The notes under the pieces were generated by a model. The model was not told the origin of the DNA. It saw only the letters and a program-made list of their open reading frames with translations, and did no database searches. A stretch of 64,000 nt of DNA from Hysterium pulicare CBS 123377 (lineage: Eukaryota; Ascomycota; Dothideomycetes; Hysteriales; Hysteriaceae): contig AJFK01000895.1 in assembly GCA_000467715.1 (NCBI GenBank), positions 1 to 64,000 of the forward strand. The letters run 5' to 3'. The position numbers and the translations under genes were made by a program. Numbering within the stretch: the first letter of the stretch is position 1; the number at the start of each line of letters is the position of its first letter. This document shows, piece after piece, positions 46,603-51,859 of the stretch.

Positions 46603-47645
46603 AGATATCTCAATGGCTTTTCTCCGCAAAAGGAATTAACGACCCCATGAAAATGGATTGACTCAGTTGGTGGTTACCTACTTACAGCATTTTGGGGGTC
46701 TTTTGTTTAACAGGGATTTTCTATGGGATTCCGCGAGCCCGAGACTGTATCATCGAAATGTATTGCATTGTTGGCGTTTTCCAAACTTTTTGTGGCAAGT
46801 ATCGTTGCTCTTATTCCCTAAATAATAGCTACTCTTTAGCCTATCATGTACCCTACATGCCTGTTTCAATGCTACCCAATTGCATGTAATACAATCAGAA
46901 CCGTCTAATGCGAGCAGTGCAATTGTGGCTGGATCCGAGTTTTTATAGCGTGAGCTCAAATTCTCTCCTCCTTCCGCATAACAAGATTTGGCCTGTCCAA
47001 AATCGGACGAAATGGTTTGTCGTACTATGTGCTGAAGCCATATGCCCACCCTATCTCTACTCTCCGTAGCCATGAACTTATAGCATTATCAGGAATGTTA
47101 CTATCTTTCTCAGAAAAATCAACTACAAAAACGAAGTCTTAAGCTAAAGTCTCTATTATCCTCCCGTTATTCAATCTGCCTCAACATCTCCACTCGTTCT
47201 CCCCACCAATTTCCCCCGCTTCCGACGTTGTATAATCGGCGCGGGGTTGTATACCATCTTAGAGCAAGGTGGATGTTTATCTAAAAAGGCTCTGCATCCG
47301 TTCAATAAGTGCAAAAGCCAATCAAAGCTCTGATGACCTCTAGAACAGCCTTACAAAGATATATGCTGTGATTTGATTGATCATCATGGTGGTGTATGCA
47401 CTGACGATCTCAACATGCGTCATTTTGAAACTGATATTCAGGGCGGAACTGTTAATTATATAAACATTATTACACACGTAGAGCATCATATCATCTTCCA
47501 AACCCACCTTTTCTCACTACTTCTTTAAATCTATCTACGTGATATAATAACTTGCAATTTTCTTTTTCAGCCTGAGCCCTGCCAACCTCAACTAAATCCC
47601 CAAATTACGCAACCTCCCGCAATATTCTAGCCCTCATCACCAAAT
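46603..47645. other. Long intergenic stretch
   Basis: About 1 kb with scattered short open frames (46692-46889 plus, 46750-47073 minus) that show no domain, signal peptide or splice extension. AT content rises towards 47450. No gene or element supported. Confidence 0.5.
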
Positions 47646-48536
47646 ATGCCCTTCTACGACATCAACCACAGCACCCCTCTAACGCCCCACCAACGCTCAA
47701 GCCTCGCCGAGAAAATTACCTCTCTCCACTGCGAGACCTTCTCCGCCCCCTCCATCTTCGTCAACATCCGATTCACAGGCCCGCAGAAAGAAGAAGAAGA
47801 TGAGTTTGATAAAGCTCAGCCACGCGTAAGCAGTGATTATATTCAAAGCTCTCATTCATGGTCTATTTTATTTTATTTTATTTTATTATATAACGTTGTT
47901 TCTTTGATTTCTTGTTTACTTCTCATTGGTTTTGGTTTGCACGCCATCGTCACCGTCGACGACAAAAAGAGTGACTATCCGCAGAAAGAAGAAGAACCTT
48001 CCTCAACCACCGCTTACGAGAAACGCGAAACGGCATTTTTCGTGGGCGGACGGCCGGTGAGTGAGCCCCCGCTTCCCCTCCTCTCACCCTCTATTCGGAT
48101 TTCTAGCCTAGTCCAGATCAGAACAAATAGAGGAAAGTGAGTACACCAAGCTAAAGGGTACATCGAAAAACGCCAGGAACGCCCAAACGCCATATTCGCA
48201 CACATCCGAACCCGCGCCTCCCTCACCGCTCATGAAAAGCAGGAGAAATTGAATGGCTTGACCACGGCTCTTGTACCGATTTGGGGCGAAGTGGTGCGGA
48301 AAGATGATTCTTCTACGCCTCGGAACCCGAATGGAAGGCTAGATGATGAGAGGGCGCTTCATACGATCTTTATTATGGAAGATATCGAGGCCGGGTATGA
48401 GCAAGGGTTTGTGATGCCTAAGGCAGGGGATGATGGGGAGTGGGTGAAGAGGAATATGAGGGATTTTGAGGGGAGAGCTGAGGCGGGGGATCGGGCGATG
48501 GAGAGGCTGGTTGGGGAGTGGAAGGAAAGGATTTGA
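47646..48536 (+). CDS. Tautomerase/cis-CaaD-like protein carrying an in-frame insertion
   Basis: Related to the small tautomerase superfamily, whose catalytic base is the N-terminal proline. The protein starts MPFYDINHSTPLTPHQRSSL, with Pro2 in place, then SAPSIFVNIRF. Later come TAYEKRETAFFVGGRPV, spliced at 48060/48157 to RYIEKRQERPNAIFAHIR, and a helical C-terminus. Between IRFTGPQ and TAYEK lies extra sequence flanked by an 18-bp direct repeat (47781-47798 and 47979-47996; 198-bp period). It includes a MITE end with donor GTAAGC at 47826, and CCGCAG ending at 47984 is an in-frame acceptor. The likeliest model is exons 47646-47825, 47985-48060 and 48157-48536 (211 residues); without that first intron it is 264. 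Activity is inferred. Confidence 0.65.
47781..47996 (+). mobile_element. Insertion in the tautomerase gene with a MITE end and 18-bp flanking repeat
   Basis: An 18-bp sequence beginning CCGCAGAAAG occurs at 47781-47798 and again at 47979-47996. Within the insert, 47802-47854 matches the right end of the MITE at 50817-50869 at about 46 of 53 positions, in the same orientation. Only one end is recognisable, followed by a TTTTA-rich tract at about 47862-47890. The period is 198 bp, so the host frame is preserved. Confidence 0.6.
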
Positions 48537-50240: not shown

Positions 50241-50344
50241 TGGTGGAGATTGTTGGAACTTCTAGAGAGAATCGATCAAAAGAGCAGTGCCTTTATACTG
50301 CACGCCGGATGCGCGTTGAGTCAACGGAATGCTGAATTAGAGAT

Positions 50345-50398
50345 AGATGCTTTAACTTTTAATCACCGTTTACGTATGGTTGAGCTTCACCAAGCTCT
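50345..50398 (+). mobile_element. Diverged single MITE end (left-type)
   Basis: Similar to the left end of the complete element (50571-50623), sharing TGCTTTAA, ATCACCG and ATGGTTGAGCTT with a one-base length difference. No matching right end is seen before the complete element begins, so it looks like a remnant. Confidence 0.55.
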
Positions 50399-50570
50399 TC
50401 TTTAGAGGTAGACCTAGAGATCGTGTCATCTCATTGACACTTTTCGTTGTCAACGGTGACCAGAGGGTATAAACCAACCCAAAGAACTAAAACTAAGTTA
50501 CCAAAACCAATAAGAACTAAAGGTGAAGTTAAAGAAACAGCGTTGCATCATTCAGTGTATCAGCAATGAG

Positions 50571-50869
50571 TGAGTGCTTTAAACATAATTACCGCTTACG
50601 CGTGGTTGAGCTTTACCAAACTCTCCTTTCCGGCACCGAAGCAAGTTGGTTGAAGAGGATTGAGGGCAAGAGGTTAGCAAGCCGGGCTTACGTGGAGGAA
50701 AGCTCCTGGGGGTTGAAGGTTGGCTGAAGGAAGGTTGAGGATTCGGCCGACTCGTGGTTTTGGAAGTTGTGATATCGCGAGAGGCCGGGGAGAAAAGCAT
50801 TTGGGTAGTTGACGAAGAGTTTGGTAAAGCTCTACCAAGCGTAAGCGGTGATTATGTTTAAAGCTCTCA
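50571..50869. mobile_element. Complete 299-bp MITE-like DNA element
   Basis: Non-autonomous DNA-transposon-like element with 53-bp terminal inverted repeats: left end 50571-50623, right end 50817-50869, matching at 49 of 53 positions. Outermost sequence is TGAG[T/A]GCTTTAAACATAAT. The 193-bp interior shows no open frame of note. I could not identify a clear target-site duplication, so the superfamily is open. Related ends occur at 47802-47854 and 50345-50398. Confidence 0.85.
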
Positions 50870-51859
50870 TTTATCGTTGGTTGGGGTAGTTGCGCAACAA
50901 TAACTTCGCAATCGTGGTTGCGTTGGTCATTGGTTGTGTCATTCTGGTTGCATTATGATCCGGGGACTTCTCTTTTTCTCGAGCAAGGAACTTGGCGCAA
51001 AGAGAAGCAAACACCGCAGAATATGGCAGATAGAAGCTGTTCTGAACGATGATAGTCTTAAGTTATAGAAGAGATACTTATGCCCCTTGAGCGCATAATG
51101 CTGAAACTTGGGCGGACTATCCTGCAGTCCAGAGGGATGCTGCAGTGTCGAGGTCTATCATTGATCGCTGTTTTCATCCGAAGGAATTAGGTATGTATCC
51201 CTTAATTGGAAAGTTAGAAACAGGTACTGGAAGCCAAGCGTAGGCTTTTTTTTGGGGGGGGGGTTAGGACCCGAATTTTAACGCAGGGTGTAAAGGTGGC
51301 GTAACCAATTCATGGCCATTGATTGAAGGGTATTTTCCTCAGCTCACTGAGACAGCCCACTTGTGCCATGTAAAATTGACTTTGTTAACTGTTCCCAAAC
51401 CCCAAACCTCTCGTCATTTACGCGCCCTTCTCATCCTATTGGAGTGTTACTTCCCTTTCCAACGACGGCGTCGGGGATGGTGGAAGATCTTGTGACAGTG
51501 CTAGGTATGTCAAAAGTTAGTAGTCGCTGTCATATAAATTGAGGTGGTTGATTGTGATCGAATGACAGGGATAGGGGACTCCAGATAGGTCGATAATAAG
51601 CAAATAAACCGTCGGAGATGAGTCTTAACTCTAAATTAAAGGGAAAGAGTGGAGGGAGAGTTTCGAGACGAAGGCTGAGAAGGGGGCGGCGAGTTTGAAA
51701 TAATATATGGAATAAGATTGATTGTAGATGGCTCACAGGATATCTTTCACTTACGTACACCGTCTGAAGTCCGTCTTCGTCTAACTACACCTTGATACAA
51801 CGGACAACCCAAATCTATCCACACATCCTCTTTCCGACTTCCACGCCTGATTTGTGATC

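Follow-up and report, generated by a model that had tools for sequence, protein, structure and literature searches.

The window, a stretch of 64,000 nucleotides from Hysterium pulicare CBS 123377 (contig AJFK01000895.1), carries on its plus strand an open reading frame that matches Tautomerase_3 (Pfam PF14832, E=3.3e-8). Leaving aside an insert in its first exon, the gene model comprises 190 codons, and neither a premature stop nor a frameshift was found in this frame outside the insert. No paralogue was found in the fungus's own genome, the gene being single-copy. Judged by its ESF1 protein, the fungus falls in the Dothideomycetes, with Zopfia rhizophila as best match (70%). The features of the locus, together with two related loci, were as follows.

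47646 to 48056, plus strand: exon 1, interrupted by the insert (Pfam match; the homologue alignment extends to either side of the insert).
47781 to 47798, plus strand: first copy of the target-site duplication (TSD), 18 bp, identical to the second.
47799 to 47978, minus strand: 5'-truncated retroposon copy, the 3' end of its RNA lying leftmost (family alignment; table of truncations and TSDs).
47826 to 47984, plus strand: candidate intron or exitron, GTAAGC...CCGCAG, 159 nt, a multiple of three and stop-free (splice-pair search).
47936 to 47937, minus strand: fossil exon-exon junction of the source RNA, downstream-donor splice form, where two source blocks meet.
47972 to 47975, plus strand: branch-like TGAC, its A 10 nt from the AG, the only TRAY motif near the acceptor.
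47979 to 47996, plus strand: second copy of the TSD, containing the candidate acceptor CCGCAG (47979-47984).
48057 to 48176, plus strand: ordinary intron 2, GTGAGT...GCCAG, 120 nt, with a stop inside (deduced from the frame and the homologue alignment, VGGRP/ERPNAIF).
48177 to 48536, plus strand: exon 2, open to the stop codon (frame and homologue alignment).
50811 to 50882, minus strand: a further family member, shorter at 72 nt and likewise framed by a TSD, here near-perfect.
C234:3600-9600, about 1093-2800 of locus L132, minus strand: locus rich in introns; once spliced, its RNA corresponds to the dispersed retroposon copies.

The insert measures 180 bp and lies between perfect 18-bp repeats (CCGCAGAAAGAAGAAGAA) spaced 198 bp apart; it is in frame and without stops, and the reading frame is open across it. 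The border between the first repeat and the element can be placed only to within about 3 nt, as both contain GAA. When one repeat unit was deleted in silico, the gene read ...FTGPQKEEEPSSTTAYEK..., the continuous junction that a previous sequence-only reading of the locus had described. That reading had also pointed to the identical 18-mers and the unchanged frame, to GTAAGC at 47826 and to CCGCAG ending at 47984 as an in-frame acceptor, all of which the sequence bore out, and our recount reproduced its 46 matches in 53 positions between 47802-47854 and 50817-50869. It was also right in seeing a mobile element that duplicated its target within a coding exon and supplied a GTAAGC, the second target copy supplying CCGCAG. 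It had called the shared stretch the end of a MITE; the stretch does belong to a mobile element, but that element proved to be of another kind.

The own genome assembly (37.2 Mb, 596 contigs) was searched with a 35-place pattern of the conserved end, yielding 175 matches (88 forward and 87 reverse), and the same pattern read backwards yielded none in this assembly, so the resemblance goes beyond chance. From the fetched loci, 116 distinct copies were taken for the analysis of ends and TSDs. One end was constant (GAAGAAGAGTTTGATNAAGCTC...), and the other was truncated at many different positions. At the truncation point, 74 of the 116 copies showed a direct repeat scoring at least 9; by this criterion the other 42 had no TSD. 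The repeats ranged from 9 to 21 bp, with a median of 13. When the left flanks were swapped between copies, 0 to 3 of 115 passed per round, compared with 73 of 115 for the real flanks. A fixed 3' end, a ragged 5' end and TSDs of variable length are the mark of target-primed reverse transcription. The stretch at 47802-47854 is the constant 3' end of the retroposon RNA, in reverse, and since the RNA strand is the minus strand of the window, the element lies antisense in the tautomerase gene. It is nearly certain that the 180-nt insert arose when target-primed reverse transcription copied a spliced retroposon RNA, without its 5' part, into the gene in antisense orientation and duplicated 18 bp of the target. 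The length of the duplication, which had been taken as long for a MITE, was a useful clue but is normal for this family, and the two layered events suggested to account for it are not needed, as one retroposon insertion explains the repeat.

A MITE or other DNA transposon was rejected: no inverted repeat of at least 10 was found in 47600-48100, and in place of a fixed short TSD with two fixed ends, the family has TSDs of 9 to 21 bp and one variable end. A MITE on its way to becoming an introner would agree with the known introner arrangement, in which the element gives the donor and the duplicated target the acceptor (PMC9860276), but this explanation is highly improbable given the absence of inverted repeats in that interval, the variable end and TSD length, the derivation of the copies from spliced RNA and the lack of excess in open reading frames (ORFs), the last two of which are described below.

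The evidence for a spliced source came from a relative of the family on contig C234 (loci L132 and L043), which carries extra segments of about 50 to 60 nt. When the fetched loci were screened for insertions of 30 to 130 nt relative to the consensus, such segments turned up in C234 only; in RNA orientation, each opens with GTAAGT, GTACGT or GTAGGT and closes with AG. The dispersed copies are without these introns, the gaps falling at GT-AG borders, and thus derive from spliced RNA. Five C234 junctions matched retrocopies at 23 to 29 of 30 positions. For a sixth junction, all 31 spanning copies fitted a spliced form best and none the unspliced one; 21 of them used the first donor, and 10, including the window copy, a donor 4 nt downstream. 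At this fossil junction, the window copy matched the second splice form at 25 of 30 positions, compared with 20 for the first form and 20 for the unspliced sequence. Of 18 junction tests, which include the five matches at 23 to 29 of 30, several did not resolve: low scores out of 30 were obtained for C390 (18, 18 and 17), C474 (16) and the window at 50.7 kb (16), and L026 and L059 scored 21 of 30 at the first intron, again without resolving.

From its sequence, C234 looks like the source gene of the family or a close relative of it, and the introns imply that the source transcript was presumably made by polymerase II. Just upstream of the intron-rich locus lies a LINE-like reverse-transcriptase relic (about 2956-5874 of L132, minus strand; one of three RVT_1 matches) with broken frames; this stretch had no other copies in the genome except for about 60 bp belonging to the first exon of the retroposon itself, a result that gives no support for the relic as part of the retroposon. 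In addition, C234:1942-2175 of L132 (plus strand) and C390:52597-52737 are 78% alike without gaps, and an open frame also runs along the opposite strand of the former stretch; a captured gene piece is possible.

The family resembles non-LTR retroposons (SINEs and LINE 3' tails) in its constant 3' end, variable 5' truncation and variable TSDs of 9 to 21 bp. It differs from them in having no poly-A at the constant end; Rfam gave no match at E<=1 to an RNA-gene head (the polymerase III kind, from tRNA, 5S or 7SL) in the three long copies L059, L026 and L053, and no intact reverse-transcriptase partner was identified among the three RVT_1 matches, one of which has two internal stops. In being made of retrocopies of spliced RNA, with two donor forms at one intron, it is similar to the SpIREs of human L1 and to processed pseudogenes; that spliced RNA can be retroposed is already known (PMC5860796). 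As described in that paper, however, spliced L1 copies are generally dead ends, whereas here the spliced copies constitute the dispersed family, and in a fungus. The family is therefore both an unusual mobile element for a fungus and a fossil record of splicing, preserving retrocopies of at least two splice forms.

With regard to introner behaviour, ORFs of at least 150 codons spanned 5 of 30 insertion sites and 19 of 60 control points taken at a distance of 800 bp (Fisher p 0.21, with a small control), so that there was no excess of copies in genes. Considering all 74 TSD sites, 12 lay in such ORFs, 5 in sense and 7 in antisense orientation; L036 and L100, both among the 12, are doubtful on account of neighbouring copies. 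Wherever a sense copy in another ORF was read through, a stop was met inside the element, and none of the copies was shown to be an intron of a gene. Family-wide introner behaviour was not supported, and the candidate intron itself has neither a stable fold nor a canonical branch site. One of the copies, L022 (C196:36230-36349), is a 130-bp antisense insertion, not a multiple of three, that interrupts a UbiA prenyltransferase family gene, which matched Pfam with E 2.4e-36 once the copy was removed.

Introners supplying one splice site are already known, and the element studied here is like the introners and introner-like elements of Dothideomycetes in that it could give one splice site and its duplicated target the other (PMC9860276, PMC4457414). 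It differs from them in its long TSDs, in not being concentrated in ORFs and in not being intron-shaped. The ascomycete introner families are reported in PMC9860276 to be without TSDs and terminal inverted repeats.

Donors in 47700-48056 and acceptors in 47760-48056 were paired, and 47826/47984 was the sole GTRNG...YAG pair of 40 to 260 nt. Splicing there in silico gave a 203-aa product without a premature stop. The 13 additional residues are the best outcome attainable relative to the empty-site protein, which is not exactly restorable by splicing because the first target copy lacks a GT at the equivalent position. GTAAG occurs within the first 60 nt of 102 of the 116 copies, which makes the donor a feature of the family and no sign of selection. 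No strict NYTNAY branch motif was found in the 40 nt searched by the acceptor, whereas five of the seven introns deduced here contain one (by eye); these introns measure 49 to 120 nt, compared with 159 nt for the candidate. The candidate intron RNA showed no stable fold relative to shuffles (z 0.78). Judging from these sequence features, the missing canonical branch site, the length and the open frame in multiples of three argue against constitutive splicing; selection is reported to act against introns that are stop-free multiples of three (Jaillon et al., cited in PMC4484396).

Among 63 TSD-bearing copies of at least 100 bp, the window copy alone had any stop-free frame, and mononucleotide shuffles of the 180 nt were stop-free in 2.2% of cases. 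Of the three consensus stops in this frame, two were lost through variants found in other copies too, and the third was bypassed by the window copy's own indels. A stop-free multiple of three, the sole case in 63 copies, argues that read-through would matter. Translation across the insert would add 66 residues with a membrane-helix-like stretch, raising the 19-residue hydropathy maximum from 0.63 to 2.45.

The insertion site falls in the loop that separates VNIxF, the first conserved block, from VGG. We found 87 homologues, and in the 65 with both loop anchors this loop spans 7 to 30 residues, never more than 30. In the present gene it would have 23 residues without the insert, 36 when spliced and 89 when read through. 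This comparison, which the sequence-only reading had recommended, does not date the insertion, since over most of their length the homologues reach no more than about 50% identity; nothing closer, whether orthologue or strain, was found.

Taken with the loop data, exonisation without splicing, in which the insert is simply translated and its 66 residues with the hydrophobic segment are accommodated in the VNIxF-VGG loop, is possible and ranks second among the accounts considered. It would explain why the 198 bp are a multiple of three and stop-free, which splicing does not require and shuffles seldom reproduce, and it agrees with the absence of a canonical branch site; but it has to reconcile an 89-residue loop with the 7 to 30 residues of the homologues, and a hydrophobic maximum of 2.45 with a protein otherwise at or below 0.63, and it leaves a usable GT-AG pair without a role.

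The age of the insertion bears on a further explanation, namely that the gene was broken fairly recently and is heading for loss, the open frame and the GT-AG pair being due to chance. The window copy departs from the family majority base at 29 of 174 sites, and among its differences 7 are private and 12 more are common to at most 4 other copies. These 7 to 19 lineage-specific or rare differences suggest an insertion of some age, which is uncertain given that the TSDs are identical at 18 of 18 positions; coding constraint could keep them alike. By the same identity, the insertion may be too young for an intact gene to prove anything. Gene loss would also be in line with the disruptive appearance of other copies in ORFs, such as the 130 bp in the UbiA-family gene, and with a single-copy gene that nothing shows to be essential. 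We nevertheless regard it as rather unlikely, since the remaining frame is intact, the rare differences point to some age, and the one copy of the 63 that has no stop is in frame within a gene that is intact.

Optional splicing of the insert is, tentatively and at about even odds, the most likely single account, ahead of read-through alone and then of a dying gene, because a stop-free sequence, often a multiple of three and with weak sites, is the feature set of exitrons. Exitrons are described as lying inside coding exons, with GT-AG borders, no stops, lengths often a multiple of three and weak splice signals (PMC4484396). The candidate is similar in every one of these respects. Alternative splicing is the defining feature of exitrons, and for the candidate here it is a prediction; the exitrons described in that paper come from plant and human exons, and the string 'transpos' is absent from the text of it that was searched.

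In the favoured account, the retroposon RNA copy that was inserted antisense by target-primed reverse transcription into a coding exon of a living Tautomerase_3 gene is by chance a stop-free multiple of three and supplies one usable GT, with the AG supplied by the duplicated target. The gene would survive because at least some transcripts lose the 159 nt, so that a variable loop grows by 13 residues, and the remaining transcripts would be read through into the product with 66 extra residues. The outcome would be an optional intron made in one step from the antisense strand of a retroposon. The stronger form of this proposal, that a single retrotransposition made a working exitron, the antisense strand giving the donor and the 18-bp duplication the acceptor, with two proteins as a result (a soluble tautomerase close to normal and a version into which a membrane segment has been built), is doubtful as a whole.

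The origin of new spliceosomal introns in fungi is an open question. In the literature searched, we saw no account of an intron created by a retroposon in a fungus, which is not proof of absence. If the insert is spliced, an antisense retroposon with a long TSD would have given rise to an intron, which would be a new variant and a TSD-bearing route in an ascomycete, as opposed to the introner families reported without TSDs. The anatomy of this retroposon is known, TSDs flank it, and the intact gene around it offers a single donor and a single acceptor, so that intron birth or its failure is testable.

The window contains further pieces of the family, clustered at 50271-50882. The 72-nt copy, with its TSD at 50801-50811 and 50881-50892 (one extra G, by eye), interrupts upstream-exon pieces at 50770-50798 and 50671-50739, and pieces in the opposite orientation lie at 50406-50628, 50349-50402 and 50271-50326. 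Elsewhere in the genome, L026, L059, L061 and the minus-strand copy L036 are AT-rich, with apparent heavy C-to-T/G-to-A mutation (by eye), and look as after repeat-induced point mutation.
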